Shown here: piece after piece, positions 6,018-55,761 of the stretch
How the letters are laid out: each line of letters begins with the position of its first letter
Position numbering within the stretch: the stretch's first letter is position 1
Assembly (NCBI RefSeq): GCF_009741735.1
Contig: NZ_WHOH01000003.1
Span: forward strand, 1,240,001-1,304,000
Source: Lentibacillus sp. JNUCC-1
Lineage (GTDB): Bacteria; Bacillota; Bacilli; Bacillales; Amphibacillaceae
Length of the DNA: 64,000 nt
Reading direction: 5' to 3'
The notes under the pieces: generated by a model
What the model was told of the DNA's origin: nothing
Databases searched by the model: none
Seen by the model: only the letters and a program-made list of their open reading frames with translations
Program-made: the position numbers and the translations under genes

Positions 6018-6917
6018 ATGAATGAATATATCTATCCTATTGTATTTGGCATTTTAATCGGTGTCATAGCGCGGATTATAATGCTTCGAACAGATTACAG
6101 GCAATATCCGACTTATCTGCACGGCAAGATCATCCATCTGGCCCTTGGATTTATAGCGGCTTCACTGGGAGCGATGGCCGTGCCTGCTCTGATGGAAAAG
6201 GAATTTACAGCCATCACTTTTTTAACGCTTGCAGCCAGTCAATTTCGTGAAGTCCGTAATATGGAAAGACAAACTTTAACAGAAATTGACGGTCTGGAAC
6301 TGGTTCCAAGAGGCAAGACATATATCGAAGGCATCGCCATCTCGTTCGAAGGCCGTAACTATCTGGTTATATTCACATCACTTGTAGGCACGTTGCTGTT
6401 TCTTGTCTATAATGTCTACATTGCTTTTTTAGGAGGCATCCTCTGTTTGCTGCTTGGAAAAATGCTGATGAGTGGCTCCACATTAAAGGATATTGTTGAT
6501 ATTGAGCATCACCCACTTCATTTTGACGGAGCAGGGCTGTATATTGATAATATTTACATCATGAATATTGGACTAACAGAACGGCAGGAAGATATTAAAA
6601 AATATGGCATGGGTTTTGTTTTAACACCAAAGAACATGAATATTAATACAACCATTGCAAACCTGGGGCAGCGTCAGGCGATTTTACATGATGTATCGAT
6701 TTCACTTGGAGTGTTCAGAGATTCAGGCACGCCAGCCCTCACCCCACTTATTAAGCGTGATCTTGACGATGGACGCATTGGTGTGTTTATCCTACCCCAA
6801 ATTAGAGAAGTGAAAAAAGCCGCAGAGATTATTGGAGCAGTCCCGGTACTTGAAAATGCAATTCGACTTCCATCCAAGTCCAGGACGCATAATAAGGATG
6901 AGGAGGCAGCACAATGA
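6018..6917 (+). CDS. seaA: YIEGIA-domain protein (YphB/SeaA family)
   Basis: 299 residues with about four membrane segments in the N-terminal half and a soluble C-terminal domain. The diagnostic motif is seen directly in GKTYIEGIAISFEGRNY. The family occurs in spore-formers, and in B. subtilis the gene (yphB/seaA) is linked to spore envelope assembly and germination. It starts four bases after yphA and overlaps the next small gene by ATGA, so the three are translationally coupled. Confidence 0.87.
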   Translation: MNEYIYPIVFGILIGVIARIIMLRTDYRQYPTYLHGKIIHLALGFIAASLGAMAVPALMEKEFTAITFLTLAASQFREVRNMERQTLTEIDGLELVPRGKTYIEGIAISFEGRNYLVIFTSLVGTLLFLVYNVYIAFLGGILCLLLGKMLMSGSTLKDIVDIEHHPLHFDGAGLYIDNIYIMNIGLTERQEDIKKYGMGFVLTPKNMNINTTIANLGQRQAILHDVSISLGVFRDSGTPALTPLIKRDLDDGRIGVFILPQIREVKKAAEIIGAVPVLENAIRLPSKSRTHNKDEEAAQ

Positions 6918-7101
6918 TCGTTGAAAAAGCGATACTGGCAGTCATTACAACGAACAAACAAAAATCGGCGGCGGGGCTCCGGTTTTTTTGTGCGATGACA
7001 AAGAGGAAATGCAAATGGTAGCCTCGAATCTGGAAGCAATTATGGATGGCATTGCCCATGCACTGGGGGAAGAATTGCTTGTGATTGTTAAACACGGTTA
7101 A
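6914..7101 (+). pseudogene. Capping complex subunit for YIEGIA, frameshifted
   Basis: Translation from ATG 6914 gives MIVEKAILAVITTNKQ and then runs to an early stop with a nonsense tail. Another frame continues at once as GGGAPVFLCDDKEEM, then ASNLEAIMDGIAHALGEE and a stop at 7099-7101. One extra A in the run at 6960-6964 joins the two into a ~62-residue protein of the family annotated as the capping subunit for YIEGIA. The start overlaps the YIEGIA gene by four bases, supporting a partnership. Whether the frameshift is real or a sequencing error cannot be decided here. Confidence 0.8.
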
Positions 7102-7104
7102 AAA

Positions 7105-7133
7105 TTGTTTATATCTCTCAACTTTGATAAAAT
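7105..7133 (+). promoter_or_regulatory. Candidate sigma-A promoter for der
   Basis: TTGTTT (7105-7110), a 17-base spacer and TAAAAT (7128-7133) lie about 60 bases before the der start codon. Inferred from consensus only. Confidence 0.5.
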
Positions 7134-7190
7134 GAGTAACAGACTTTTACAGTTCGATACTTATAGCACAAGAAAGGATGTTCTTCATCC

Positions 7191-8501
7191 ATGAGAAAAT
7201 CAGTTGTTGCCATTGTGGGCAGGCCAAACGTTGGAAAGTCAACGATATTCAACAGGCTTGTCGGGGAAAGAATTTCAATCGTTGAAGATACGCCCGGTGT
7301 AACCCGGGACAGAATATACAGTGAAGCAGAATGGTTGAACACAACATTTAACCTAATAGACACAGGGGGCATAGATGTCGGTGATGAGCCCCTGATTGCT
7401 CAAATCAGATATCAGGCGGAAATTGCAATAGATGAAGCAGATGTCATCATTTTTATGGTTAATGGCCGTGAAGGTATAACTGCTTCCGATGATGAGGTTG
7501 CGAAGCTTCTTTACAGATCAAACAAGCCTGTGGTACTTGCTGTGAATAAAATTGATAATGTGGAAATGCGTAATTCTATTTATGACTTTTATGCACTTGG
7601 TTTTGGGGAACCCTTCCCGATATCCGGGGCGCACGGGCTCGGTCTTGGTGACCTTCTTGATGATGTAGTGGCTAAGTTTCCTAAAGATCAAACTGAAGAT
7701 GTAGATGAAGACACAATATACTTCAGTCTGATCGGAAGACCGAATGTGGGTAAGTCCTCTTTAGTTAATGCGCTCCTGAATGAGGAACGGGTTATTGTTA
7801 GTGATATTGAAGGGACAACCCGAGATGCTGTGGATACAAGACTGCGCAGAGATCATCAAGATTATATGATCATTGACACAGCAGGCATGAGGAAAAAAGG
7901 AAAAGTTTACGAAGCGACAGAAAAATATAGTGTTCTCCGTGCATTGAAAGCAATCGACCGTTCTGATGTCGTTCTTGTTCTGATAGACGCTGAGACCGGC
8001 ATCAGAGAACAGGACAAACGGATTGCCGGATACGCTCATGATGCGGGTAGGGGTATTATTATTGTTGTAAACAAATGGGATACTGTTGAAAAAACAGATA
8101 AAGCCATGAAAGAATTTGAAGACAATGTTCGCCAACAGTTTCAGTTTCTTGATTACGCACCGCTTGTCTTTTTATCTGCCAAAACCAAAAAACGCATTCA
8201 TACACTGATTCCAGCTATTAAACTTGTAAGTGAACACCACGCCAAACGTATACCGACAAACGTTCTAAACGATGTGATCATGGACGCCCTTGCGATCAAT
8301 CCTACACCTACTTATAAAGGGAAGCGGCTTAAAATTTTGTATGCAACACAAGTCGCTGTGAAGCCACCCGCTTTTGTGGTATTTGTAAACGATACAGAGC
8401 TCATGCATTTCTCATATGAGCGCTTCCTTGAAAATAAGATAAGAGAAGCGTTTGGCTTTTCAGGGACACCAATTAAAATCTTTGCCAGAAAAAGGGACTA
8501 G
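7191..8501 (+). CDS. der: Ribosome biogenesis GTPase Der (EngA)
   Basis: 436 residues, the standard length. It has two tandem GTPase domains, each with GRPNVGKS (near residues 10 and 180), DTxG switch motifs (LIDTGGID and IIDTAGM) and NKxD ([14 protein letters not shown]), then the C-terminal KH-like domain. It is an essential GTPase for 50S subunit maturation. The ATG follows AGAAAGGATG. It precedes gpsA, as in other Bacillaceae. Confidence 0.97.
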
Positions 8502-8513
8502 GAGGAAATACAC

Positions 8514-9545
8514 ATGAAACGAGTAGCAGTACTGGGTGCAGGCAGCTGGGGAAGTGCCTTGAGCATTGTTTTGGCAGATAATGGTCATGACGTCAGATTA
8601 TGGACACATCGAAAAGAACAGGCTGATTTAATCAATGAAACTCATAAGAACGAAAAGTACCTGGAAATCATGATACCAAAACAGATCATTGCTTATCACG
8701 ATATGTCTGCCGCAATTAAAGATGTTGACGTTATTTTGATTGTGGTGCCAAGCAAGGCAATGAGAGAAGTTTGTCAGCAATTGAGTTCAAGCATGGAAGG
8801 CCATCCTGTGATTGTCCATGCTTCCAAAGGCATTGAACCAGGTACTTTATCACGTGTTTCACAAGTCATTGGTGAAGAGTTGGCTGCTTATAAAGAAGAA
8901 GACATTGTTGTGTTGTCGGGTCCAAGTCACGCAGAAGAAGTGGCGCAACGTCAGCCGACCACAGTCACTGTATCTTCAAACAATGAGCAGAATGCCAAAG
9001 CTATCCAGGATCTGTTTATGAATGAATCTTTTCGTGTATATACGAGTACCGATGTGATCGGCATAGAGCTTGGCGGCGCATTGAAAAACATTATCGCTCT
9101 TGGTGCCGGCATTTCTGACGGTCTTGGGTATGGAGATAACGCTAAAGCAGCTTTGATTACAAGAGGTCTCGCAGAAATCTCGCGTCTGGGAACGAAAATG
9201 GGAGCTAACCCTTTTACATTCCTCGGATTACCGGGCGTGGGAGATTTAATTGTAACATGTACAAGTGTCCATAGCCGTAACTGGCGGGCCGGAAATCTGC
9301 TTGGTAAAGGCAACCCGCTTGATGAAGTTCTTGACCAAATGGGGATGGTTGTAGAAGGTGTCAGAACGACCAAAGCTGCTTACCAATTCGCTCAGGATCA
9401 TAATATTGAAATGCCGATTACAGAAGGTATTTATGAGGTGCTTTTCAACGATACAGAACCTCGGGCGGTTGTGGAACAACTCATGAATCGCACTAAGCGA
9501 GAAGAATTGGATGATCTTAAACAACTGTTGAACAATCCAGAATAG
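8514..9545 (+). CDS. gpsA: Glycerol-3-phosphate dehydrogenase [NAD(P)+]
   Basis: 343 residues. The N-terminal Rossmann motif GAGSWGSALS is followed by LSGPSHAEE, the ELGGALKNIIALGAGI active-site segment with the conserved Lys, and GLPGVGDLIVTC plus SRN(W)R substrate motifs. It reduces dihydroxyacetone phosphate to sn-glycerol 3-phosphate for phospholipid synthesis. It lies 12 bases after der with an AGGAGG site, so the two are probably co-transcribed. Confidence 0.97.
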   Translation: MKRVAVLGAGSWGSALSIVLADNGHDVRLWTHRKEQADLINETHKNEKYLEIMIPKQIIAYHDMSAAIKDVDVILIVVPSKAMREVCQQLSSSMEGHPVIVHASKGIEPGTLSRVSQVIGEELAAYKEEDIVVLSGPSHAEEVAQRQPTTVTVSSNNEQNAKAIQDLFMNESFRVYTSTDVIGIELGGALKNIIALGAGISDGLGYGDNAKAALITRGLAEISRLGTKMGANPFTFLGLPGVGDLIVTCTSVHSRNWRAGNLLGKGNPLDEVLDQMGMVVEGVRTTKAAYQFAQDHNIEMPITEGIYEVLFNDTEPRAVVEQLMNRTKREELDDLKQLLNNPE

Positions 9546-9552
9546 ACGATAC

Positions 9553-9579
9553 ACAGAGACTTCTCCGCTTGCATACAAT
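9553..9579 (+). promoter_or_regulatory. Candidate sporulation (mother-cell sigma) promoter for spoVIF-like gene
   Basis: CATACAAT (9572-9579) matches the -10 of sigma-E and partly that of sigma-K; an AC 17 bases upstream (9553-9554) suits the sigma-K -35. It is placed about 35 bases before the start codon of a sporulation gene. Consensus only. Confidence 0.4.
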
Positions 9580-9611
9580 GTGGTGTACCCACATCACAAG
9601 GAGGAGAGCAT

Positions 9612-9872
9612 GTGAGCCATTCACAAAAAAACGTTTTTGACAACATTCAAAATAACTCTAACATTAATCCAGACGAAATTTATAAAGTCGCGAACTCAGT
9701 AAAAAACGCAGACTTTTCAGATGAAACAACAGTAAGAAATCTTGTTAGGCGCCTGTCAAAAATGGCTAATAAACCGATATCGAAAGAAAAAGAAGATCAA
9801 ATTGTTGCTTCAATTATTAACAAAGATGTTCCGATGAATATGCAATCATTAAGCAACATCTTTAAAAATTAG
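9612..9872 (+). CDS. spoVIF: Stage VI sporulation protein F-like (SpoVIF)
   Basis: 86 residues from GTG 9612, preceded by AAGGAGGAGA. It matches the SpoVIF family: an N-terminal 'VFDNIQNNSNI' segment, then IYKVANSVKNADFSDE, TVRNLVRRLSKMA and SKEKEDQIVASI. In B. subtilis SpoVIF is a sigma-K-dependent protein needed for normal spore coat assembly. There it sits elsewhere in the chromosome; here it lies between gpsA and yphE. Confidence 0.8.
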   Translation: MSHSQKNVFDNIQNNSNINPDEIYKVANSVKNADFSDETTVRNLVRRLSKMANKPISKEKEDQIVASIINKDVPMNMQSLSNIFKN

Positions 9873-9972
9873 TCTGACTGGGCAAGTGATGATACAATGT
9901 GCTGCGATTGAGCATAATATAAATCGTACAAGGATTTATGGGTAGAACTGTGTTGGATGTTATTTGGTCAAC

Positions 9973-10006
9973 CGAGATGAAGCTCATTCGCCCGCTTCAT
10001 CTCGGA
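9973..10006. repeat. Perfect 12-bp inverted repeat (hairpin)
   Basis: CCGAGATGAAGC (9973-9984) pairs perfectly with GCTTCATCTCGG (9995-10006) across a 10-base loop. Only a weak T tract (ATATTTTGTT) follows. It may terminate spoVIF transcription or be an operator; it lies 27 bases before a second, clearer terminator. Confidence 0.7.
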
Positions 10007-10032
10007 TATTTTGTTAAATGTGCATATATCTG

Positions 10033-10063
10033 AAGAGACAAGCATATTGTCTCTTGTTTTTTT
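10033..10063 (+). terminator. Rho-independent terminator upstream of yphE
   Basis: AAGAGACAA and TTGTCTCTT form a perfect 9-bp stem with a five-base loop, followed by GTTTTTTT. A TATAAT (10068-10073) directly after it may be the -10 of the yphE promoter. Confidence 0.8.
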
Positions 10064-10108
10064 ATGTTATAATACTTATGTTAACGACGTGTAGTTAGGG
10101 TGAGAACA

Positions 10109-10305
10109 ATGAGTGAGGCAGGATTAAAGGAACTGATTTCATTTGGGGCATTGGCCTCTTGATTTTGGCACTTGTTTTAATACAATTAAGTCGAAGAAAA
10201 TTGTCAGGGGTGCTGGCAGGGGTAACGGCTTTTTTCGCTTATATTTCTCTGATCATTGGCGGGCTGTTTGTCTTATATGTGGTATTCAGCGGGCCAACCA
10301 TATAG
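10109..10305 (+). pseudogene. yphE: YphE-like DUF2768 membrane protein, frameshifted
   Basis: ATG 10109 reads MSEAGLKELISFG and then hits a stop within five codons. The next frame continues as IGLLILALVLIQLSRRKL, then a second hydrophobic segment (AGVTAFFAYISLIIGGLF) ending SGPTI at 10305. Restoring one G in the run at 10145-10148 gives a ~65-residue protein with two membrane spans, matching the DUF2768/YphE family in its usual place between gpsA and spoIVA. Function unknown. Confidence 0.75.
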
Positions 10306-10321
10306 CACCAGGAGGTTTACC

Positions 10322-11046
10322 ATGAAGCGGTCATATATAACAATAATACTATTACTTATTTTGATGATGATCTTAAACGGATGTATGTTTCCGGAAAGTG
10401 AAAAAAGAAAAATTCAACACCGAATGAAGATCAGCTGCAAATGGTCCAGACCGCAGTTGATCAGTTTCGTGAACAGACAGATGGACTGCTCCCTATAAGA
10501 ACAAAACCGAACGAGACACCAATTTTCCAAAAGTACCTGATTGATTTTGCCCAGTTAAAAGAACGCAATCTATTGACCGAGATTCCAGGAAATGCATTTG
10601 AGAATGGTGGCGTGTATACGTATGCCATCATTTATCCTGAAACAGATCCACAGGTCAAACTGATCGATTTGCGCCTTTCAGAAGAAATCAGGCGCATTAA
10701 CCTGAAGTTGGATATGTATCGGGACGAGCATCTCTATCCACCTTATGGCAGTCAGATTGCAGATGGTGTGTTCCAAATCAACTATAAAAAGCTTGGTTTA
10801 GAGGAGCCACCTCATGTCGTCAGTCCTTTTTCCAATGTTAATCTTCCAATCGTAATGGATACAACAGGATCACTCTATATCGACTATCGGATTGATTTAA
10901 ATAAAGCACTTGAAGAACAAGAACATAACTACCAGGAAAAAGACGATATCAGATATATCCTTGCAGAAACATCTCCATTTCTGCCAGCCTATTCGTTACC
11001 TTATACAGTAGAAAATGGTGAACCTGTTTTTATGGCGGAAAAATAA
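10322..11046 (+). pseudogene. yphF: YphF-like lipoprotein, frameshifted
   Basis: ATG 10322 (after AGGAGG) starts a lipoprotein signal peptide ending in the lipobox LNGC. After ~28 codons the frame drifts into a non-homologous tail. From about 10413 another frame reads NSTPNEDQLQMVQTAVDQF and runs intact to 11046. One more A in the A-rich stretch 10401-10412 joins them into ~240 residues, as expected for YphF. It sits just before spoIVA as in B. subtilis. Role unknown; the lipobox implies anchoring to the outer face of the membrane. Confidence 0.8.
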
Positions 11047-11064
11047 TATATATCAGGCATATTA

Positions 11065-11104
11065 AGTCTCTTGATACATATAGTGTGTCAAGAGGCTTTT
11101 TTAA
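11065..11104 (+). terminator. Rho-independent terminator after yphF
   Basis: A 14-bp stem with two G.U pairs (AGTCTCTTGATACA with TGTGTCAAGAGGCT) is followed by a T tract. Confidence 0.8.
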
Positions 11105-11176
11105 TGAGTACAGCCAGGCTGCATATATGTCTAAAGGGCGAAAAGGAAGTTTTAACCGTCTTTTACACATATTTAA

Positions 11177-11207
11177 GTCATATTGTGATAGGACAACATC
11201 ATAGAAT
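11177..11207 (+). promoter_or_regulatory. Candidate sigma-E promoter for spoIVA
   Basis: GTCATATT (11177-11184), a 15-base spacer and CATAGAAT (11200-11207) fit the mother-cell sigma-E consensus well. The site is about 65 bases before spoIVA, which is sigma-E-dependent in B. subtilis. Confidence 0.6.
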
Positions 11208-11272
11208 TGTAATGTCAATTCATCGAGATTGTTTTTAACACTATTCGGCAAAGGAGATCGGGAGGGGATCGT

Positions 11273-25138: not shown

Positions 25139-26010
25139 TTAGTGCTCCAATGGCTTTTTGTTTTCATCCAGTGTGAATCCTTCACCCATTACATCGTGTA
25201 CGGAATCAACAGCGACAAAAGCGTGGGGATCAATATCGTTGATGATGTTTTTGAGGCGAACGATTTCATTACGTGCAATGACGCAGTAAAGTACATCGCG
25301 TCTTTCCCCGGTAAAACTGCCTCTTCCATCAAGCATCGTCACTCCGCGGTCCATTACCTGGTTGATTTTAGCAGCAATTTCACTGCTCTTTGACGAGATG
25401 ATCATGGCCCCCCGTGCTGAATAAGCACCTTCCTGAATAAAGTCAATAACCCTAGCACCTATATACACTGCTACCAACGTATACATACCCTCTACCAGCT
25501 CAAGAACAAAAAAGATGGAAGTGGAAATCACAACAAGGTCAAACAGAAACATGGTTCTTCCCATACTCCAACCGGCATATTTATGTACAATCCTGGCGAT
25601 GATATCGACCCCGCCTGTTGTACCGCCATAACGAAATATAATACCGAGCCCTACACCTATAAACACTCCTGCAAATAAAGCGGCCAATGTCATATCCGAT
25701 TGCAGGTATGTCGGAAAATGGTGTGCCTGAAAGACGCCCAGAAACACTGAAACAGCAAAAGTCCCAATAATCGTATATAAAAAAGTAGTTCGGCCCAGGA
25801 ACTTCCAACCAATAAAAAAGACTGGAATGTTAAGGACAAGGTTCATGACAGCAGGGTCCCATCCCCACAAAAAGTAAAATAACAATGTGATCCCTGTAAA
25901 ACCGCCTTCACTCAAATTGTTCTGCATATTGAAATGAACAATTCCGAATGAAAATATTGCAGAACCCAACAAAATAAAAAAGTGTTTTTGAGCTTCAATC
26001 CGAATAACAT
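25139..26010 (-). pseudogene. ypjC: YitT/YpjC family membrane protein, frameshifted near its start
   Basis: The long frame encodes ~275 residues with five membrane spans and a C-terminal DUF2179 domain (RRDVLYCVIARNEI), typical of the YitT family. Its only start in frame lacks a ribosome site. The proper start is ATG at 26008-26010 (complement), after AAGGAGG, reading MLFGLKLKNT. Adding one base to the six-base run at 25976-25981 joins this to FFILLGSAIFSFGIVHFN, matching the family N-terminus. Function of the family is not established. Confidence 0.82.
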
Positions 26011-27239: not shown

Positions 27240-27294
27240 AGATCATTAGTGATACAAACCAGTTAATTAATTGCAGAAGAAACAGGTGAGTGTG

Positions 27295-27710
27295 TTGAAT
27301 ATAGCTTTAATTGCACATGATAAAAGAAAGAAGAAATGATTCGCTTTTCAATGGCGTATAAGCATGTCCTGAAAGAACATCACTTATATGCAACAGGAAC
27401 AACAGGCAAGTTAATTCATGAAGCAACCGAATTGCCTGTAACGCGCTTTCAATCAGGACCACAAGGTGGCGATCAACAAATTGGAGCGATGATTGCCAGT
27501 AACGAAATGGACATGGTGATTTTCTTCCGAGACCCTTTAACGTCCCAGCCGCATGAGCCTGATGTAAGTGCCTTGATGCGTCTTTGTGATGTGCACTTAA
27601 TTCCACTGGCTACAAATTTAGCAGCTGGAGAAATTGTGATCAGAGGGCTTGAGCGGGGAGATCTTCAATGGCGTGAGATTGTTGCAGCACAAAAGGATTT
27701 GAAAAAATGA
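27295..27710 (+). pseudogene. mgsA: Methylglyoxal synthase, frameshifted near the N-terminus
   Basis: TTG 27295 (or GTG 27292) reads [14 protein letters not shown] and stops at 27337-27339. From ATG 27336 a second frame gives the rest of the enzyme, with [44 protein letters not shown] and [10 protein letters not shown]. One missing A in 27331-27336 accounts for the break. The lost N-terminus carries the conserved His-Asp and Lys of the phosphate site, so the short frame alone would not be active. The enzyme makes methylglyoxal from dihydroxyacetone phosphate. bshA overlaps its end by four bases. Confidence 0.88.
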
Positions 27711-38749: not shown

Positions 38750-41565
38750 TTAGTTTCCAGTATTTTTTTGTTGTTTATTGTCACCTTGCCCTTGTTTATC
38801 GCCATTTCCGTCGTCTTTTTATTATTACTGTTATTGCCGCCGTCTCCATTGTCATTTTGATTATCACCGTCTTTTTGAGGGACTGTGACACTTGCTGATT
38901 GAGGATCACCTTTTTTATTTTGGTTGGCTCCATTTTTGCCAATAGGCGTGACGGTAATCGTATATTGACCCGGCGGCAGTTCACCTGATATTTCAATTCC
39001 GTTTGATTCAACAGTTTGAGTCTTGCTGTTCGGGCCACTGACTTTTACCTCAAATGAGGCAGGAGGACCGTTATACCCCCAACTGACGTCAATCATCGAA
39101 TCAGAAGCTACGTATTGAGCTGACAGATTTTGAACAGCCGGAATTTGCTGTGCTTCGTCATCTCCGTTGTTTTCCTCATTATTTTCATTTTCTTCATTGT
39201 TCTCTTCATTGTTTTCTTCATCTTTATCACCAGGAACTTTAAGTTTGACCGTTTTTGGATCACTGTCAGCGGCTGCAGTGTCTTTCCCTTTGACAACTAC
39301 TTGTATCGTATATTCTGCGCCTTCTTCAACGTTGGATATTTCTATCGCAGTTTTGTCCGTTGTCGACAGGTTTTTCATGCCGCCATCATCGATCGCTGCG
39401 CTGATCTCAAAGGTGACATCTTCGCCAGAATCATAAGACCATTCCACGTCAATTAATTCATCATCCTTATTATATTCGGCTTTTAAATCACTTACTGGAT
39501 CAAGCTTGTCAAATTTTTCCGAAGTTGATTTAGGTTCAGTTCCTTTTACGAACAGTTCAGTAACGATCCTGGAGTCAGGTGTATACTCACTTGGCAGAGC
39601 TGGCGGATTGGATCCTTTTTCAACTTGAACCTCGGAAACAGAGCTCGGTTTCGACCAGTCTGGTGTCTCAATGTCTTTGGATATATCTTGCATGGTCAGC
39701 TTAAACAAATCCAATGCGATTGTCGTATCTTTGGAATCAATGCTTAAATCATTGGCACCCTCATAGCCGGTCCATACGGAAATGGTATAGTTGGTCGTGT
39801 ATCCGCTGAACCATCTGTCTCTGGTTTTGTCGGTCGTTCCTGTTTTTCCCGCTACTGGCAAACCAGGGATTTGTACTCTTTGACCAGTGCCTTCTTTTAC
39901 GACATCTTTTAACATGTCGGTAACCATATAAGCGGTGTAATCTTCCATGACAGCTTTGGGTTCAGGCTTGAATTCCATCGTTTCGCCGTCTTGAAATTCG
40001 ATTTTGGTTACAGAATAAGGTTCATTATAAACACCTTCGTTACCAAAAGCCCGGTAAGCACCGGCAAGCTGAAGCGTCGTAACATCTGTCGAGGTGCCGC
40101 CGATCACATCTCGCAAGTTAATATTCTTTTCAAAGTTAATTCCAAGGCTTTCTGCAAACGACTGGGCCTGAGAAGGGTCCACTTCCTCAAATAATTTAAC
40201 AGAAGGGACGTTTCGAGAGTCGACTAATGCATGGCGCATGGTCATCCAGCCTTCAAATTTTTGGTCGACGTTTCTGATGTCACTTGAGCCCTTCACCTCA
40301 TAGGGCTTATCATCGTTAAGTTGATGATAGGTTGACAGCTTTTCATATTCAATGGCCGGTCCATAGGCTATAATCGGCTTGAAAGTTGAACCAGGTTGAT
40401 TGTGTCCTTGAGTCGCATAGCTGAACCCACCATTTTTGACTCCGTCTACAGCACCGCCAATCGCCCGGATCGCCCCTGTTTTCGTATCCAGAACTGTCAT
40501 CCCAGCCTGGAACGCACGCTCATCCCCATTATCGTCTGTTTTGTCCTCGGGGTATGTGATGCCATGATCGCCATCACGTGACATGAGATACTCGACACGA
40601 TCTTGCACAGAAGGATCCAAAGTTGTATATATTTTTAGTCCATCTGTCCGTATGTCCGCATCATCTGCTTTATTTGCTACTTCTTTTTCCACTTGCTTTA
40701 CAAATGCTTCATAGGGTGTTGCTTGAGGTTTCTTGCCTTCGAGCAGTGATGCAATTTCTACTGTTCTCGCTTCTTCAGCATCTTCTTCGCTGATCTTGTC
40801 ATGTCTAACCATAAGCTTTAATACCGTGTTCATGCGTTTTTTCATCAAATCCGGATTTTCATACGGATCATAGGCAGAAGGGCGTTGTGGGAGACCTGCA
40901 AGAATGGCTGCTTCTGGTAGTGTCAGTTCATTTAGGTCTGTTTTACCAAAATAAACTTCTGCGGCTTTGGCAACGCCATATGCATTACTGCCATAGTAAA
41001 TTTTGTTTAGATACATGGCCAGGATTTCTTCTTTGCTATATTCTCTCTCAAGCTTGAGCGCCATCCATTGTTCCTGCACTTTCAGCTTGATTTTTTTGTC
41101 ACGGGCGAGAAAGTAGTTTTCAACCACTTGCTGGGTAATGGTGCTTGCACCTTCAGACCCGAATCCATTTTTAATGTTGGCGATAATGGCCCCGCCAATA
41201 CGTTTCAAATCAATACCAGAGTGTTCGAAAAACCTGACATCCTCTGTGGCTGTGACAGCATTGATGAGAACAGGGGGGAGATCATCATATTCGATCTTTG
41301 TCCGGTTTTGCGCCCCCAGGTCACCAATCAGGTCACCATTGATATCGTATAATTGTGATGAAAACGGATCTTGAAGTTTATCCGGATCTATGCCCGGTGC
41401 GGTAGCTGCGTAATAAGCAAATAAACCGCCGACACTGATCATTCCCACCAAGCCAACTAAGAGCAGGATCAGAATGACTCTTTTCCACATAGGTTTCTTT
41501 TGAGATTTTTTTTGAGCTTTCTGTTGTTTCCGTCTTGCTGTGCGTGAATTATTATTTTCAGCCAT
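38750..41565 (-). CDS. ponA: Penicillin-binding protein 1A (class A), with frameshift in C-terminal tail
   Basis: A basic cytoplasmic N-terminus and membrane span (residues 29-52) precede a GT51 glycosyltransferase domain (EDVRFFEHSGID near 108-119, STITQQ at 141-146) and a transpeptidase domain with SxxK at S393, SRN at 450 and KTGT at 574. Two fibronectin type III-like domains (about 690-780 and 810-895) flank an Asn/Glu-rich linker (783-806). The uncorrected frame runs on as antisense of nth to 38164. One more base in the run at 38816-38820 gives a hydrophilic Gly/Asp/Gln/Asn tail ending at 38750, next to the terminator, total ~938 residues. Confidence 0.92.
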
Positions 41566-45192: not shown

Positions 45193-45585
45193 ATAGGAAT
45201 ACTCACGTAATCGCTGCAGACTTGATCTGCAGAGGAAAGTCCATACTCACACAGGCTGAGATGCCTGTAGTGTTCGTGCTTGACGAAACGATAAGTCAAG
45301 GTAGCCATACGGCTAACGGCAGCGGAGCCCCTAAGTCAATTGATATGGGGCAGTACGCTTGAAAGTGCCACAGTGACGTATGCGTAGTGGAAACACTGCG
45401 CGTGGAACGCGGTAAACCCCACGAGTGAGCAACCCAAACAAAGGTAGGGGCACCCTTGATTAGGAAATTCAACCGAAAAAGGGACAAGAACTTTCTTGTA
45501 GACAGATGATTACGACCGTTGTACGAGGCTGACCACCGCTTGCAGTACGACGGAACAGAATATGGCTTACAGAGTATTCCTATGG
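45193..45585 (+). ncRNA. rnpB: RNase P RNA, type B
   Basis: The conserved cores are readable: GTAATCGCTGCAG, GAGGAAAGTCCAT, TGAAAGTGCCACAGTGACG, GTGGAACGCGGTAAACCCC, and near the 3' end CAGTACGACGGAACA and GGCTTACAGA. The ends pair as AGGAATACTC (45195) with GAGTATTCCT (45572), the P1 helix. Length (~390 nt) and lack of an A-type P6 fit the Bacillus B type. A TATAAT at 45184-45189 directly upstream is a likely -10. It is the catalytic RNA that trims tRNA 5' leaders. Confidence 0.96.
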
Positions 45586-45688: not shown

Positions 45689-46818
45689 ATGAAAAAAGAT
45701 GTTACGTTAATTGCTACAGCGGCTATGGGCCTTGAGTCTATTGTGGCTCAAGAAGTTAAAAATCTAGGTTACGCTCCGAAAGTGGATAACGGAGCTGTTT
45801 ATTTCGATGCCCCATTATCCGCCATTCCGCGTTGTAATTTATGGCTTCGGACGGCTGATCGTCTTAAGATTCAAGTAGGTGAATTTAAGGCAGACACATT
45901 TGATGCATTATTTGAAGGTGTAAAAGCCTTGCCATGGGAATTTTTTGTGAGTGAGGACGGTGCTTTCCCTGTCCAAGGCAAATCTGTTAAATCGACTTTG
46001 TACAGTGTCCCGGATTGTCAGGCGATTACTAAGAAGGCCATCGCAGAGCGTTTGAAATTAAAATATGGATTGGCTTCAAAAATGCCTGAATCAGGCCCCC
46101 TTTATAAAGTGGAAGTCGCTCTTCTTAAAGATCAAGTATCATTAACCCTTGATACGTCAGGGGCTGGTTTGCATAAGCGGGGATATCGAACAGGGCAAGG
46201 AAGTGCTCCTTTAAAAGAAACGCTTGCTGCAGCTCTTGTTTTATTGACCAACTGGAAGCCTGATGAGCCGTTTGTAGATCCTTTTTGCGGTTCGGGCACA
46301 ATTCCGATAGAAGCAGCTTTAATAGGACAGAATATAGCACCTGGATTCAACAGGGAATTTGACTCCGAAAATTGGTCGATCATATCTTCAAAATTCTGGG
46401 ACAAGGCTTTTGAAGAAGCGGAAGATCAGGCTGATTATGACCAAGCTTTGGACATTACCGGCAGTGACATCGATCATAATATGATTAGCATCTCCAAACA
46501 GAATGCAATGGAAGCAGGTCTTGCTGATCTTATATCATGGAAGCAGATGCAAGTGCGCGATCTGACCATTAAACGTCATAATGGATATATTGTCACCAAT
46601 CCCCCGTATGGGGAACGAATTGGCGACAAGGATAAAGTCGCTCAATTATATAAATCCCTGGGGGCGTCATGAACAACCATCCTTCATGGAGTGTCTATGT
46701 ATTGACAGCGTTTGAACAATTTGAAGCCCTGTATGGAAAACAGGCTACTAAGAAGCGGAAATTATTTAACGGCTTTATTAAAACAGATTACTATCAGTAT
46801 TTTGGAAGTAAGAAATAG
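45689..46818 (+). pseudogene. rlmL: THUMP-domain 23S rRNA guanine-N2 methyltransferase (RlmL/YpsC), frameshifted near the C-terminus
   Basis: The first frame gives 327 residues: a THUMP-type N-terminus (LIATAAMGLESIVAQEV), then a methyltransferase domain with FVDPFCGSGTIPIEAA, GSDIDHNM and catalytic NPPYGERIG. It stops abruptly at 46672. The overlapping frame reads WSVYVLTAFEQFEALYG and KKRKLFNGFIKTDYYQ, the normal C-terminus. One extra G in the run 46660-46664 rejoins them into ~376 residues, the family length. It lies after rnpB as ypsC does in B. subtilis. Confidence 0.88.
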
Positions 46819-47539: not shown

Positions 47540-49188
47540 TTACCAGAGTTTGAATCCTTTAGATCCTGGTGGTGCGTTTTGTATAATATCTATAAACGGT
47601 ATTGTATAGGCAAACAGGATGAGCAAAACGGTAACTCCAATCCAGACTTTCCAATTTTCCAGAATTTTCGGTGTCGGAGCTGCTTCATCTGCAAGCTCTG
47701 CAATTGGGAACTCTTCTTCACCCTTTGGTGCGAAAAATGCTAGGTTTATGAAGATAATGATCATAATAACCATGCCGATGAATAAGATAGAACCCCGATT
47801 GCTTGTGCCAGTTGGTATGCGCCCCATGCAGCAGTATCATCGTTTCCGACATATTCGGAATAAGCCGAACGTCTTGGTCCGCCCAGCAGACCCTGCCAGT
47901 GCATCGCACCGGACATAATCAACATTCCTACTGTCCAGAACATGGTCTGAACCATACCCAGCTTATTCATTTTCGGCGTCAATTTTCTACCTGTAAGAGA
48001 AGGGACAAGCCAATAAGTGATACCGAAAAACGTTAAGATAACTGTTGTAGCTGCAGTTAAATGGAAGTGTCCGGTGACCCAGATGGTATTATGAATAACC
48101 TGGTTCATTTGGTTTGAAGCGTTGATGATTCCGCCGGCACCGCCGGGAATAAACAACAGCATACCGATAAATGGTGCAAAGAAACGGACATCTTTCCATG
48201 GCAATTTCTTAAACCAGCCCATTATGCCTTTTCCACCAAGTTCTCTGCCGCGCATTTCAAACGTCGCGAATAAAGAGAAAGCTGTCATCAAGGATGGAAT
48301 TACAACTAAGAATGTTAAAACAACTTGTAAGTACTTCCAAAATGGATCGATCCCTGGTTCAGTCAGCTGGTGGTGAAATCCAACTGGAATCGAGAACAAA
48401 AGTAACAAAATAAAGGACATCCGTGCCAATGAATCGGAAAAAAGTTTGCCACCGATAATTTTTGGTATAATGGCATACCAAGCCATATAAGCAGGCAATA
48501 GCCAAAAGTAAACGAGCGGATGACCAAAATACCAAAACAGGGTACGGCTGACCAGTACATCAATTTCTTCAGTCAACCCAAGTGACCACGGGATAAATTG
48601 AATTAAGACCGCTGCGGCAACTCCAATTGTAGCAATCTGCCACATCAGCATAGTGATGACACCCATATAGCTCAACAAAGGCGTGCGCTCACCTGGATTT
48701 TCTTTTCGCCATCTGTAATGTTTATGGAAAATGGCAAAACCTTCAAGCCAGCTTCCCACTACGACAAGTGCGAGACCGATGTAGAAAATTGGGTGTGCTT
48801 GTAATGGAGCATAGAAAGTATACAAGACAGAAGCTTCATTCAATAAAATTACAATCGCTGTCATGATCACACCGGACACCATCATAAGAAAACCAGTCCA
48901 GGCCCATTTTCTTTCACCTGAAGTGTATTGTCCGGCAGATTTGCTTTGTGTTGCTAGAATAAAACCAATAATGAAGAACGTTGTCAAAACAAGTCCAAGG
49001 ACGACTCCGTGAAGCGTCAGCACTTGGTAATAACCAATTCCAAATGGCAGCGTAAAGTGGCCTGATCTCTCTAGTGTCTGCAACAAGCCTGCAGAGGCCC
49101 CGATAAAGAGTGCTGCAAAAGCAACAAATAAATGTGCCATGGCTAACTTTGCGTCTGGTGTATAAATGCTTCTTATTGATTTAATCAT
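47540..49188 (-). pseudogene. cbaA: ba3-type cytochrome c oxidase subunit I, frameshifted near the C-terminus
   Basis: The first frame covers eleven or so membrane helices: LHGVVLGLV (haem His), GHPLVYFWLLPAYMAWY (CuB His; Leu where A-type oxidases have Glu, as in ba3 enzymes), GFHHQLTEPG (two CuB His) and TGHFHLTAATTV (haem His). After GAYQLAQAIG it goes out of frame; the next frame continues GSILFIGMVIMIIIFINLAF and ends GSKGFKLW at 47540. One more base at the C run 47793-47796 restores ~550 residues. It reduces O2 at the haem/CuB site. The start overlaps the subunit II stop. Confidence 0.9.
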
Positions 49189-49670
49189 TACTCTATCACC
49201 TCAATTGTTGCGGCCATCATATGGTGACCAACACCACAGTATTCATTACAAAGCAATGTGAATTCCCCGGCGTTTTTGAATGTATTCGTATAAGTGCTGA
49301 TATAGCCAGGTTCAAGCATCATATTGACATTTGTGCCAGCAAGCTCAAAACCGTGTACAACATCTGCAGTTGTCACATTAAAATGAACAGTAGCGCCTTT
49401 GGGGATCTGAACAACCTTATCATCTGTTCCAACGTCATAGTTAAAAGCGGATGCTACAATGGTCAGCTGATATTCATTATCGCCAATCTCTACTAGGCCT
49501 GGATTATCAAATGGTGCCGTTTCATGAACTTTTTCGGGATCAATGGTGACTGCACAACTTGGAGGCTGATTGCCCATGTAAAATGCACTGACACCAACAA
49601 CCGTTAAAAAAACGAGCAGTGTGGCTGTACCAAACAACAACCAGATTTTTTCATATTTATGCATATTCAT
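49188..49670 (-). CDS. cbaB: ba3-type cytochrome c oxidase subunit II (CuA)
   Basis: 160 residues: one N-terminal membrane helix, then a cupredoxin domain. CuA ligands are visible in DVVHGFELAG (His) and CNEYCGVGHHMM (two Cys, His, Met). It accepts electrons from cytochrome c, which qcrABC can supply. It overlaps cbaA, fixing the operon order cbaC-cbaB-cbaA-sco on the minus strand. Confidence 0.94.
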   Translation of the reverse strand: MNMHKYEKIWLLFGTATLLVFLTVVGVSAFYMGNQPPSCAVTIDPEKVHETAPFDNPGLVEIGDNEYQLTIVASAFNYDVGTDDKVVQIPKGATVHFNVTTADVVHGFELAGTNVNMMLEPGYISTYTNTFKNAGEFTLLCNEYCGVGHHMMAATIEVIE

Positions 49671-49905: not shown

Positions 49906-49919
49906 TGAAAGCGATTTTG
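49906..49919. promoter_or_regulatory. Possible CcpA cre site upstream of the oxidase operon
   Basis: TGAAAGCGATTTTG agrees with the cre consensus TGWAANCGNTNWCA at all but the last two positions. It lies about 70 bases upstream of the oxidase operon and 160 bases upstream of the divergent polyketide synthase gene. Suggestive only. Confidence 0.3.
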
Positions 49920-50079
49920 CTTGTTTTGTGATGTATTCACACTTTGTTCAATAACTCTTGAACCCCGTTGTATCAAAGGTTTACTAACCTTTGCGTTTAA
50001 AAAGTTTGTGACTGATATATGAACAAAGAGTGGATAAAACGTTACAAAGACACAAATAATAACTGCAGGAGGGATGGAT

Positions 50080-51165
50080 ATGGCTTTTATCGGCTCAGTA
50101 GGGATTGGCCTGCCTGATCACCATATTTCTCAAGATGAGGCGAAGCAACTTGCAAGCAGCCTGTTTTCCAACAAAATCGCTGACACGGATCGTTTACTAG
50201 CTGTATTCGACCATGCTGCAATTGAAGACCGACAACTTGTTGTAGATCTAGATTGGTTTGCTCAAGATCACAGGTTAAAAGAAAGAAATGATATGTACAC
50301 ACAATCGGTTCTAAAACACACATTAACAGCACTGGACGAAACATTGGCTGCGGGTACTTTTTTGTCAAAAAACGTTCCATATGAAGCGATTGATTTAATC
50401 GTGTTCGTATCAAGCACTGGCTTGTCAACCCCATCCATTGATGCACATCTGATCAACTCCCGCCCCATTCGTGAAGATGTTGCGCGCATGCCTTTGTGGG
50501 GTTTTGGGTGTGCAGGTGGAGCAATTGGCTTGGCACATGCGCATGATTGGCTTCAGGCATATCCTGACAAAAACGCAATTGTGATTTGTGCTGAAACAGC
50601 CAGCCTGACTTTTCAGCATCAGGATACAAATCCCAGTAATTTGATTGGTACAGCGTTGTTTGGTGATGGAATGGCAGCAGCATTATTAATGGGGAAAGAA
50701 TCAAAATACCTAAATCATCTCATGAAAACAATTCCTAAAATCGCTAAACGAGGGTCTCACACTGCTAAAAATACATTAGATGTTATGGGGTGGGATGTAG
50801 TAGATAGTGGTTTTGAAGTCGTCTTTTCCAAACAAATCCCCTCGTTAGTAGAATCGGTATGGAAATCCCATGTAGAGCAATTCACCAGCGAGGTCTCCCT
50901 GCATCCGTCTGACATCCATTCCTATATCGCACATCCGGGTGGGCGAAAAGTACTGGAAGCAATGGAAAGTGTGTTTAATATCCCTCGGTTTAAACTACAG
51001 CCCTCATGGGATATACTTCGAAACCACGGTAATATGTCGTCACCAACAGTCTTGTATGCTTTAGAAAAATGGATGCAAAGTACTGTAGAAGCAGGGGAGA
51101 AAAGTATTCTGTCTGCTCTTGGACCTGGGTTTAGTTCTGAATTAATGAGTTTGGAGTGGGTGTGA
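50080..51165 (+). CDS. bpsA: Type III polyketide synthase (alkylpyrone synthase, BcsA/BpsA type)
   Basis: 361 residues from ATG 50080, with AGGAGGG at proper spacing; the ATG at 50074 abuts that site. Chalcone/stilbene synthase fold with catalytic Cys144 in WGFGCAGGAIGLAHA, His in AHPGGRK and Asn in NHGNMSSPT. Bacterial relatives condense long-chain acyl-CoA with malonyl-CoA (or methylmalonyl-CoA) to alkylpyrones. The next gene, one base later, is the matching methyltransferase. In B. subtilis the pair (bpsA-bpsB) is at another locus. Confidence 0.92.
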   Translation: MAFIGSVGIGLPDHHISQDEAKQLASSLFSNKIADTDRLLAVFDHAAIEDRQLVVDLDWFAQDHRLKERNDMYTQSVLKHTLTALDETLAAGTFLSKNVPYEAIDLIVFVSSTGLSTPSIDAHLINSRPIREDVARMPLWGFGCAGGAIGLAHAHDWLQAYPDKNAIVICAETASLTFQHQDTNPSNLIGTALFGDGMAAALLMGKESKYLNHLMKTIPKIAKRGSHTAKNTLDVMGWDVVDSGFEVVFSKQIPSLVESVWKSHVEQFTSEVSLHPSDIHSYIAHPGGRKVLEAMESVFNIPRFKLQPSWDILRNHGNMSSPTVLYALEKWMQSTVEAGEKSILSALGPGFSSELMSLEWV

Positions 51166-51166
51166 T

Positions 51167-51676
51167 ATGGCGGGTTGGATGTGGATTTTTATTGGTTTTC
51201 TGAGTGTGCAGCGGGGACTGGAATTGGTGATTGCTAAACAAAATGAACGGTGGATGCTGCAACAGGGAGCGGTGGAGAGGGGGCAGCGGCACTATAAGTT
51301 GTTTATTGCTGTTCACATTCTATTTTTCATTGCATTAATTGCCGAGACAAGCTGGCGGAATGATCAAGCTATGACTTTAAACCTTGTATTATTTACGTTG
51401 TTTATCATAGTTCAGCTTCTCAGGGTTTGGTGTATCACAGCATTGGGACGCTTTTGGAATACAAAAATAATCGTGCTACCCGGGGTTTCATTAATTCAAA
51501 AGGGACCGTACAAATATGTAAAGCATCCAAATTATATTGTTGTAGCTTTGGAGTTCATCATAATTCCTTTATTATTTGGAGCTTATTACACAGCCTTCCT
51601 ATTTCCGATGCTGCACTTTCTACTATTAAAAGTACGCATACCCCAAGAAGAACGAGCCCTGACAACTGCGAAATAA
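51167..51676 (+). CDS. bpsB: Isoprenylcysteine carboxyl methyltransferase family protein (alkylpyrone O-methyltransferase BpsB/YpbQ)
   Basis: 169 residues with four membrane helices. The ICMT signature is seen as GPYKYVKHPNYIVVALEF and a C-terminal RIPQEERAL. In B. subtilis BpsB methylates the hydroxyl of alkylpyrones made by BpsA. Start overlaps the bpsA end region, so the two are translationally coupled. Confidence 0.9.
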   Translation: MAGWMWIFIGFLSVQRGLELVIAKQNERWMLQQGAVERGQRHYKLFIAVHILFFIALIAETSWRNDQAMTLNLVLFTLFIIVQLLRVWCITALGRFWNTKIIVLPGVSLIQKGPYKYVKHPNYIVVALEFIIIPLLFGAYYTAFLFPMLHFLLLKVRIPQEERALTTAK

Positions 51677-51692
51677 ACAATTTGAAACACAA

Positions 51693-51723
51693 AAAAGAAG
51701 CGACGGGTTGTCGCTTCTTTTAA
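51693..51723. terminator. Bidirectional terminator between bpsB and the cold-shock gene
   Basis: AAAAGAAGCGAC pairs perfectly with GTCGCTTCTTTT around loop GGGTT, between convergent genes. Confidence 0.9.
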
Positions 51724-51742
51724 TTCTCATATATGTCGATGA

Positions 51743-51943
51743 TTAGTTTTTGGTTACGTTGGCAGCTTGTGGACCGCGTTCACCTTCGACAATTTCAAAA
51801 GTGACACTTTGGCCTTCTTCAAGTGTCTTGAAGCCTTCTTCTTGGATCGCAGAATAATGTACGAATACATCATTGCCTTCTTCCAGTTGGATAAAGCCAT
51901 ACCCTTTTTCTGCGTTGAACCATTTTACTACACCGTTTTCCAT
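51743..51943 (-). CDS. cspD: Cold-shock protein (CspA/CspD family)
   Basis: 66 residues, the standard single cold-shock domain. RNP1 KGYGFIQL and RNP2 VFVHYSAI are intact. It binds single-stranded RNA and DNA as an RNA chaperone. The promoter lies about 260 bases upstream, giving a long leader typical of cold-induced csp genes. Which B. subtilis paralogue it corresponds to (CspB, CspC or CspD) cannot be fixed. Confidence 0.95.
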
Positions 51944-52211
51944 TGATAAGCCTCCTAAAAACTTTCACGTTCTGCCAGTCGTTCGATGATGCGATAAATC
52001 CAAAAACAACATTGAAGCTGTATTCATGATAGTGACACTTGCCGTACGTTTATCGTCTGATCAGTCGGAACATACTTCAAACGTGGTGGTAATACAAAGC
52101 AGATCCAGAACACAAAAAAACACTCCAGATAGAAGATGGGGAACATTACGCATCCACTTCCATTTGAAGTCGCTTGTTTCATGATTCCATCGATCTTCTT
52201 TGCTTGAGTAT

Positions 52212-52240
52212 AATATAACGTATTTATGGCTATGCGTCAA
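52212..52240 (-). promoter_or_regulatory. Sigma-A promoter of the cold-shock gene, with ~260-nt leader
   Basis: On the minus strand TTGACG (52240-52235), a 17-base spacer and TATATT (52217-52212). No other gene lies between it and the csp start at 51943, so the intervening bases are a long 5' leader. The remaining bases up to fhs (52241-52382) hold no feature I can support beyond the fhs ribosome site. Confidence 0.7.
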
Positions 52241-52382
52241 GAAAACAAGTAAAAAAAAGATGATATCTCCAGATTTTCTTGATATTTGTTTGAAAAAATT
52301 GGATTACTTTTGAGAAAAGTATTAAACTGTGTGTATGCGCAATCATTTTGTGCAGGGTGAGAATACAGAAAGGGGTTTTTCT

Positions 52383-54053
52383 ATGCCAACAGATATTGAA
52401 ATAGCACAAAAAGCAGAACTTAAGCCGATAGAGGAGATTGCTAAAGGTCTTGGTCTAGCTAAAGATGATTGGTCACCATACGGCCACACAAAAGCAAAAT
52501 TATCCGATCAGCTTTTAAACAAACTCTCTGACAAGCCGGACGGCAAGGTCATATTGGTTACGTCCATTAATCCAACAGCCGCCGGGGAAGGAAAGTCAAC
52601 TGTAACAGTTGGTTTGGGTCAGGCGTTAAACAAAATCAATAAAAAGACAGTCATTGCACTTCGTGAACCATCGCTTGGTCCCGTAATGGGGCTTAAAGGC
52701 GGGGCAGCAGGCGGGGGTTATTCACAAGTACTCCCAATGGAAGATATTAACTTGCATTTCACTGGTGATCTTCATGCCATCACGACTGCTAACAATTTGC
52801 TCGCTGCCATTATAGATAATCATATTCACAGAGGAAATGAGTTGAATTTGGACCCGCGTCGTATTGAATGGAAACGCGTCATGGATATGAACGATCGCGT
52901 GTTGAGACAAATTGTCGTCGGTCTTGGAGGACCGCTTCGAGGCGTTCCGCGTGAGGATGGGTTTAATATCACAGTTGCCTCAGAGATCATGGCTATTTTA
53001 TGTCTTGCTAATGATATTGATGATTTAAAGGCCAGGCTGTCTGAAATTGTAGTCGGTTATACATACGAGGAGCACCCGATTCGTGTTAAAGATTTGGCGG
53101 TGGAAGGTGCACTGACGCTCGTACTGAAAGATGCTTTAAAACCAAATCTTGTTCAGACCATTGAAAACACACCTGCTATTATACACGGTGGTCCATTTGC
53201 GAACATTGCTCATGGATGCAACAGTATCATGGCAACAAAAACAGCTGCTAAACTTGGTGAATATGTTGTGACAGAAGCCGGGTTTGGAGCAGATCTTGGG
53301 GCTGAAAAGTTCCTGGATATCAAATCACGCGCAGGCGGGTTTGAGACAGATGCGGTTGTCATTGTAGCGACAGTGCGCGCACTGAAAATGCATGGCGGTC
53401 TTTCTAAAGATGCGCTAACTGAAGAAAACCTCGAAGCACTGAAGGCAGGTATGGAAAACCTGAAGAAACACATTGAAACGATTGAGTCGTTTGGATTGCC
53501 GTTTGTGGTGGCCATCAACAAATTTCCTGCTGATACAGATGCCGAAGTGGAATTTGTACAGTCATGGTGTGAATCACGAGGTGTCGATGTGGCACTGGCT
53601 GATGTTTGGGCCAAAGGAGGAGCAGGCGGTATAGAACTCGCTGAAAAAGTGGTCCAAAAAGCCGACGTAACAGAGCGACAGTTTAACTATATGTATGAAC
53701 TTGATGAAACACTTGAAATGAAAATACGGCATATCGCTCAAAAGGTGTATGGTGCAGATGACATCGAGCTGTCACCAAAAGCCAAAAAGCAAATCGCCTT
53801 TTATGAAGAACAAGGGTGGGGGAAGCTGCCGGTTTGTATGGCAAAAACGCAATACTCTTTGTCGGATGATCCTTCACTTCTGGGACGTCCTAAAGGATTC
53901 ACAGTTAACATCAGAGAACTCAGACCTTCCATAGGTGCTGGTTTTATCGTTGTGTTGACCGGGGATATGATGACCATGCCAGGACTGCCGAAAAAACCAG
54001 CAGCCCTTAACATGGATGTTCTTGAAGATGGCAAGATTACCGGGTTGTTTTAA
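52383..54053 (+). CDS. fhs: Formate--tetrahydrofolate ligase
   Basis: 556 residues from ATG 52383 (AAAGGGG upstream). ATP-binding P-loop [15 protein letters not shown] region seen as [18 protein letters not shown], then [20 protein letters not shown], and a C-terminal [20 protein letters not shown]. It makes 10-formyl-THF from formate. I looked for a THF riboswitch upstream and did not find one. The HD gene overlaps its stop codon. Confidence 0.96.
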
Positions 54054-54649
54054 TGGATCAAGCGGAACAATTGGAAACAATCCGTCAGTATGTTTTTAAT
54101 TTGTTTGAAACAGACGCAACCGGACACGATTATCATCATATGAAGCGTGTTGCTTTAATGGCAAAAAAGATTGCTCAAGAAGAGCAAGCGGATGTGTTTA
54201 TGTGTGAAGCAGCCGGCTGGCTTCATGATGTTGGAGACCATAAATTGTTCAAGAGGCCTGCGGAAATCAAAGAAGATATGCAGAAGTTATTAAAAAACAT
54301 CGAACTACAGACTTTTTCGATCGATCATATCAACAGCATCATTCAATCAGTCTCATATACGTCGGGAAAACGAATTCCTGCGACACTGGAGGGGAAGATT
54401 GTCCAAGATGCGGACAGACTCGATGCACTAGGTGCTGTAGGGATTGCCAGAACTTTTGCTTATGGCGGCTTCAAACACCAGCCGATCTTCAGTGATGATG
54501 AGACTGAAAGAACATCAATGCGCCACTTTTATGATAAGCTCTTCAAATTATCAGATATGATGCATACGCAAAGCGCCCGCGAACTGGCAAAAGAGCGCCA
54601 TCAGTTCATGGAGCAATTCGTGGAACATTTTTATAAGGAATGGCTATAA
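54053..54649 (+). CDS. HD-domain phosphohydrolase (YpgQ-like)
   Basis: 198 residues. HD motif: HDYHHMKRV, WLHDVGDHK and IVQDADRLDALGA. YpgQ-type HD enzymes are nucleotide pyrophosphohydrolases; the exact substrate here is unknown. It starts in the fhs stop (TAATG), so it is coupled to fhs. Confidence 0.9.
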   Translation: MDQAEQLETIRQYVFNLFETDATGHDYHHMKRVALMAKKIAQEEQADVFMCEAAGWLHDVGDHKLFKRPAEIKEDMQKLLKNIELQTFSIDHINSIIQSVSYTSGKRIPATLEGKIVQDADRLDALGAVGIARTFAYGGFKHQPIFSDDETERTSMRHFYDKLFKLSDMMHTQSARELAKERHQFMEQFVEHFYKEWL

Positions 54650-54654
54650 CATCA

Positions 54655-54678
54655 ACAGCCGGGCAAAAGCCCGGCTGT
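54655..54678. terminator. Bidirectional terminator between the HD gene and the NlpC/P60 gene
   Basis: ACAGCCGGGC pairs perfectly with GCCCGGCTGT around AAAA, abutting both stop codons. Confidence 0.85.
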
Positions 54679-54679
54679 G

Positions 54680-55761
54680 TTATTGGATACGACGTGTTCC
54701 GATATACCGTTTTTCCCAATAGTTGTCGTCCAGGCTGGCAGTGGTCACACCAGTCGATGTTCCAGCATGAATAAACTGGCCATTACCAATATAAACTCCC
54801 ATATGGGACGGACCTGGTTTATACGTTTCAAAAAACACAAGATCACCAATGGACCGATCGTTGACAGGAGATGTGAAATTCCACATGTCTGACACCGTTC
54901 TGGGCGCTGTAACATTGTGTGCCTGAAAAACATATTGAATAAAACCGCTGCAGTCAAATCCGCCTGGGTCGTACCTCCCCATACATACGGTGTTCCTATA
55001 AGAGCGCGCGCTGTTTGAACGATACCGTTCCCTGAATTTGCAAGCTTTTTCACAGGTTGTTTTTTGGGTTGTTCTTTCTTGGCGGTTTGTTCAGCTGGAG
55101 TTTCTGCTTGGGCTGTTTCAACTGGTGCTTGAACATTATCGTGTTGTTCATGTTCCTCTTTTTCTTTTGGTTCACTTTCAGGTTGGTTTTCAGACTGGTT
55201 ATATAAGGTTTCAATGGAATCTGCAGTGACTTCGGGCGTTAGCTGAATCTGGTGAACATCTTCAGCTTTTTTAACAGCCTTGCTTGTAAGGGGGCCGTAT
55301 AAACCATCTATTTCGCCGGTATAATAGCCAAAATACTTAAGCGCCTTTTGAACAAGTTTCACATCTTCACCTTTTATCCCGGGATAGACCGAGCCGCTCA
55401 TTGTTTTTAATTCTTCAATGTACTTTTGCCGTTCCTCTTCGACAATACTATAAAGTGTATGATAATCGGCTTCACCGGTTATTTTAATGTTCATATCCGT
55501 TTGTATTTTCTTCAAAGCATGCTCGGTGAAAATCCCAAACTCTCCGTCTATATCATCATTATAGTAATTGAGGCGGTTCATTTTCTCCTGAAGAATTCGC
55601 ACACTCTCTCCATGCTCCCCGAAGGATATATGTTCAGCTTCCAGCAGTTTATTATTTTCCAGAACAGGATAAGCATCCACATACACGGAAAATGGCTGAC
55701 TTAGCACATAACTGTACAGAAACGACTGCTTAACCACCTGATTGATGGTTCCACTTAACAT
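54680..55761 (-). pseudogene. Secreted NlpC/P60 peptidoglycan endopeptidase with two PG-binding domains, frameshifted
   Basis: From the likely ATG at 55761 (GGGG eight bases upstream) a signal-like segment is followed by two PG_binding_1 repeats (GESVRILQEKMNRLNYYNDDIDGEFG and GEDVKLVQKALKYFGYY, cut here), a Glu/Gln/Pro/Lys-rich linker, and the NlpC start ALIGTPYVWGGT. There the frame breaks. The next frame gives PGGFDCSGFIQYVF (catalytic Cys), SHMGVYIG (His) and FIHAGTSTG. One more base at the G run 54966-54968 restores the enzyme. It would cleave D-gamma-glutamyl-meso-DAP bonds in the wall. Confidence 0.87.

Follow-up and report, generated by a model that had tools for sequence, protein, structure and literature searches.

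Single-base losses at homopolymer runs split nine genes in a Lentibacillus sp. JNUCC-1 genome window and are attributed to consensus errors of the deposited assembly

In a 64,000-nucleotide stretch of the genome of the halophilic bacterium Lentibacillus sp. JNUCC-1 (contig C3:1240001-1304000, the whole of which is called the window below), nine genes appear to be divided between two reading frames. Is this damage a property of the organism or of its deposited sequence? The genome consists of 3,687,469 bases in three contigs of 2,174,790 (C1), 25,650 and 1,487,029 (C3) bases. A first-pass annotation, made from the letters of the window, had claimed that each gene had lost one base, that no gain or substitution was involved, and that homopolymers had been undercalled in the reads or the assembly. 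The results described here indicate, with a probability of about 97%, that consensus errors from homopolymer undercalling in the deposited assembly, and not real damage to the organism, account for the nine breaks.

We examined the nine sites by frameshift-aware alignment of proteins from five relatives (G001, the only same-genus genome among those searched, G002, G005, G007 and G014) to the window. Alignment with two to five of the five relatives gave a -1 shift at eight sites, where neither +1 nor stop calls occurred. The ninth, in the gene for oxidase subunit I, was analyzed with other genomes because no close copy was present in the examined stretches of the five relatives (G001 had no match, G002, G005 and G007 had distant ones only, and G014 had one of 55% at another location). 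Among 52 other genomes with a match, the 11 that were listed with loci were used, and all 11 gave a -1 change. Judged from these alignments, comparison with the intact proteins of relatives puts each of the nine genes one base short; eight cases are strong and the ponA tail is only probable, so that both the splitting and its uniform sign were upheld. The nine genes are as follows.

6914..7095, plus strand: small gene of the YIEGIA capping-complex subunit family (PF21835; family via the G001 orthologue); frame lost at about 6953-6964 (alignment 6953-6960), -1 in 3/5 relatives
10100..10302, plus strand: DUF2768 protein (family via the G001 orthologue); frame lost at about 10145-10148 (alignment 10145), -1 in 3/5 relatives
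10322..11043, plus strand: conserved protein of about 242 amino acids; frame lost at about 10403-10412 (alignment 10403-10407), -1 in 5/5 relatives
25145..26010, minus strand: YitT-family membrane protein (PF02588/PF10035; family via the G001 orthologue); frame lost near the start at about 25976-25983 (alignment 25979-25983), -1 in 5/5 relatives
27286..27707, plus strand: methylglyoxal synthase; break close to the start, around 27320-27336 (alignment 27322), -1 in 4/5 relatives
38753..41565, minus strand: class A penicillin-binding protein (ponA type); acidic tail with a probable break around 38816-38820 (alignment 38819), -1 in 2/5 relatives
45689..46812, plus strand: THUMP-domain RNA methyltransferase (RlmL-like); break around 46658-46665, -1 in 5/5 relatives
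47543..49188, minus strand: haem-copper oxidase subunit I; break around 47793-47796 (alignment 47795-47796), -1 in 11/11 relatives tested
54683..55776, minus strand: cell-wall hydrolase of NlpC/P60 type carrying peptidoglycan-binding repeats; break around 54966-54972 (alignment 54968-54972), -1 in 4/5 relatives

For methylglyoxal synthase, the best placement lay about ten bases upstream of the proposed 27331-27336, in a lysine-rich stretch where the exact spot is not fixable. The RlmL-like protein has 327 amino acids in the window versus 375-417 for 119 other database proteins among the matches listed (8000 scored); for a same-species copy, none of the matches listed was closer than 79% besides the window's own. 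The closest matches of oxidase subunit I end at residue 465-466 of 475. The protein of about 242 amino acids matched neither NCBIfam nor Pfam families at the cut-offs applied, and the family hints for the NlpC/P60-type protein were all below curated cut-offs.

To what extent do such breaks occur beyond the window? We screened 247 kb of contig C3, window included, for clusters of frame changes or stops seen by at least two relatives. JNUCC-1 gave 34 raw clusters, consisting of 33 -1, one +1 and no stops. The same screen of 254 kb each gave five clusters in G001 (two -1, two +1, one stop), four in G014 (one, two, one), six in G005 (no -1, three +1, three stops) and eight in G007 (five, two, one), and 74 kb of G002 gave two (one -1, one +1, no stops). 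Thus, the control genomes showed few and mixed events, except for G007, which leaned toward -1. After case-by-case reading, 31 -1 clusters were accepted, and oxidase subunit I from its separate test brought the total to 32. The -1 cluster at window 45460 was dropped because it lies on the strand opposite rnpB (RNase P RNA, 45199-45574), and the -1 cluster at C3:1350903 and the sole +1 cluster (window 51941) were dropped as start extensions called in G001 and G014 too, the former a start-codon extension. The RNase P RNA is of class B (Rfam RF00011), and opposite-strand open reading frames (ORFs) give false frameshift calls here, apparently also at the corresponding position in relatives. When G001 served as the reference, 28 of the 249 genes tested were broken in the C3 sample and 7 of 71 in the window.

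A second sample covered 92 kb surrounding rpoB on contig C1, of which 70 kb lay under aligned genes; this region was chosen after C1 anchors from long ORFs gave regions common to few relatives. The raw result for JNUCC-1 was three -1 and three stop clusters, and two -1 clusters were accepted. The third, at C1:1875469, is situated immediately upstream of a gene whose alignments with relatives are unbroken, and the stop clusters fell in an upstream stretch, upstream of a 102-amino-acid gene, and at a protein end about eight residues shorter than in three relatives. Control clusters were judged by eye for C3 and counted raw for C1. In total, 34 breaks were accepted on the two contigs (34 -1, 0 +1, no internal stops), a result with a chance of 6e-11 under equal odds of either sign. 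Extrapolation from these 34 breaks, which were found over roughly 250 kb of coding sequence tested, gives an expectation of about 430 such errors genome-wide if the coding share is assumed to be 85%. A plasmid-similarity comparison gave one 168-base match, which was of no use.

The identity of the broken genes carries the argument, and the weight of the C1 sample rests on it and not on counts. On C1, rplN (ribosomal protein L14; 122 amino acids, 98% identical to G001) and rpsE (ribosomal protein S5; 167 amino acids, 96% identical to G001) were split, with -1 called by four and five relatives, respectively, and in the JNUCC-1 genome each of these families is present only as two pieces in different frames. 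Both genes are essential, and a cultured isolate cannot lack both L14 and S5. That their only copies are split in the same way as the genes of the window, which is impossible in a living isolate, is the decisive point in favor of assembly error. The other broken genes on C3 include mutL, smc (residue 32 of 1190), plsX, rimM, and those for RNase HII, HslV, FliI, FliY, MrpB, HflX and CinA, together with an FtsK-type translocase (twice) and a FliO/FliZ-type protein, the FtsK and FliZ matches being below NCBIfam cut-offs. The breaks therefore occur on two contigs and without regard to gene importance (rplN, rpsE, smc, plsX). The first-pass annotation had also argued for error from the hitting of important genes; that argument is weak within the window, where it relied on the ponA tail and the oxidase, and became decisive outside it.

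We then analyzed the sequence at 31 breaks in the window and its flank, determining for each the range of positions that the lost base may have occupied and the longest run in that interval; rimM was left out because G007 has the same change. The mean longest run was 4.32, compared with 2.65 in random coding intervals of equal widths (standard deviation 0.20 and maximum 3.35 in 2000 draws). Runs of four or more were found in 25 of the 31 intervals (5.6 expected), and G or C runs in 23 (9.6 expected). On the assumption that each site lost a single base from the longest run of its interval, losses per G/C run of inferred original length 3, 4, 5 and 6 were 1/2010, 5/457, 12/111 and 5/14, and those per A/T run of length 5, 6, 7 and 8 were 1/707, 3/279, 3/90 and 1/15. 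Loss thus becomes more frequent as runs lengthen, and G/C runs are hit far more often, at some 30 to 80 times the rate of A/T runs of equal length, although the numbers are small. The errors are single-base losses in homopolymer runs, and the proposal of undercalling stood with three refinements: the effect extends beyond the window, it is strongly G/C-biased, and it touches only a share of runs.

The published method is in accord with these findings. JNUCC-1 was isolated from Korean fermented anchovy sauce, and its assembly was made from PacBio Sequel reads (chemistry 2.0) with HGAP2 in SMRT Analysis 2.3.0; short-read data or short-read correction are nowhere mentioned in the genome paper, which names PacBio only (PMC7380530), and the assembly is accordingly taken to be long-read-only. 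In the explanation favored here, the Sequel reads miss bases in homopolymers, G/C runs and longer runs being hit more often; the HGAP2 consensus retained the shorter length at some sites, with no short reads reported to correct it; and each such site inside a gene shifts the frame by one base and splits the gene. The consensus program of SMRT Analysis 2.3.0 was built for the earlier RS II instrument. The base was presumably lost at the consensus step rather than during library preparation.

The G/C and run-length pattern alone does not separate error from biology, because mismatch-repair mutants show it too. In the excerpt available of a study of mismatch-repair-deficient Pseudomonas aeruginosa, 104 of 108 indels were in G:C runs and longer runs mutated more, resembling the JNUCC-1 breaks (PMC4702332). 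In addition, mutL is split at C3:1347214 by the same suspect type of event, and the adjacent mutS is intact. JNUCC-1 might then be a real mutator that lost mismatch repair and accumulated single-base slippage in homopolymers. However, such mutants carry insertions, deletions and many substitutions, whereas in JNUCC-1 only losses were accepted (34 -1 versus 0 +1) and no internal nonsense codon was accepted in either sample. Insertions were 3.32 times as common as deletions in the P. aeruginosa lines, again as far as the excerpt goes (PMC4702332), and under this ratio 34 losses of 34 have a chance of 2.5e-22. Two Vibrio mutS strains, in the portion of the source at hand, were near balance, one with a slight deletion bias and the other with slightly more insertions. 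A mutator should also spare essential genes, and the sole rplN and rpsE are split. We reject the mutator on account of the loss-only sign and the split ribosomal genes, and regard it as highly improbable. A mixture, in which most breaks are errors and a minority are real (perhaps mutL), so that true slippage of a genuine mutator is hidden under sequencing errors, is very unlikely.

Ordinary decay, by which the broken genes are true pseudogenes, has in its favor that many of the listed genes are dispensable in related bacteria and that the relatives carry them in a single frame. Decaying genes, however, accumulate substitutions and stops as well as indels of either sign, whereas JNUCC-1 shows one type only, and both sides of most breaks are still conserved, each in its own frame. 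Ribosomal genes are among the broken ones, and the same-genus G001 had one internal stop and no accepted -1 break in 254 kb, making decay extremely unlikely. The fall of the breaks in runs, as with slippery sites, would suit programmed frameshifting or slippage that restores the proteins and makes the frame changes functional. Nevertheless, this would be needed in more than 30 unrelated genes; the shift sites are not conserved in orthologues, which encode the proteins in one frame (the sole exception seen was rimM in G007); and most runs at the breaks are of 3-5 bases, which is short for transcript slippage. Programmed events are thus scarcely conceivable as the explanation.

Several observations weigh against consensus error as the cause. 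The ponA-tail site is thinly supported, since it was called by two of five relatives in an acidic low-complexity tail; for these reasons, and because the ORF in the window has 1133 amino acids (896-947 in the five relatives) and its overrun overlaps nth on the other strand, this break is probable and is not counted as demonstrated. The accepted break at C3:1482907 is likewise thinly supported, by a single close relative in the analysis of break intervals. In the C1 sample, the raw JNUCC-1 counts (three -1, three stops) were not above those of the controls (G001, one stop; G002, one -1; G005, four -1, two +1 and two stops; G007, one -1; G010, two -1, two +1 and two stops), and two breaks were found in this ribosomal region versus 5.3 expected from the per-run rates (P of two or fewer, 0.10). 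One control was not clean, as G007 also leaned toward -1, though more weakly. Homopolymer-length spectra, which seven more C1 stretches entered (these served only the spectra and the choice of ORFs, and not the break screen), showed no gross depletion of long runs, long A/T runs included; therefore, only a share of runs is affected and long homopolymers are not undercalled wholesale. Finally, random errors ought to have been eliminated at a coverage of 224.6-fold (PMC7380530), which requires the error to be systematic.

The artefact is known in kind. In the available part of the Kastor paper on long-read-only assemblies, short-homopolymer deletions split many genes and inflate pseudogene counts, as in JNUCC-1, but A/T runs were most affected in its MinION example, whereas G/C runs dominate in JNUCC-1, for which PacBio Sequel is reported (PMC12007338). 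Residual single-base homopolymer deletion is also described, in the accessible text, for PacBio/HGAP bacterial assemblies, where it was found with short reads; JNUCC-1 differs in that hundreds of errors are expected (PMC5797582). The accessible portions of the literature turned up by the strain name contain no mention of frameshift errors in JNUCC-1. Added here are the assembly method, the dependence of the losses on G/C and on run length, the reach of the effect outside the window and the test with ribosomal genes. The matter is one of data quality: taken at face value, the annotation would wrongly suggest that mismatch repair, a terminal oxidase, flagellar export, SMC and even two ribosomal proteins have been lost, and the split mutL beside an intact mutS would lead its reader to call the strain a mutator wrongly. 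The measured run-length and G/C rates form a simple fingerprint that could flag other assemblies made likewise.

Two further observations were made on the material compared. Haem-copper oxidase subunits I and II lie at window 47543-49670; 8 of 61 genomes searched, including the same-genus G001, had no subunit I match, and several others had distant matches only. In G007, which is a single contig of 4,071,214 bases, the five -1 clusters in 254 kb lie at C1:3145464, 3145763, 3163436, 3266399 and 3282239, one of them at the rimM site also broken in JNUCC-1, and this genome may show such error in a milder form.

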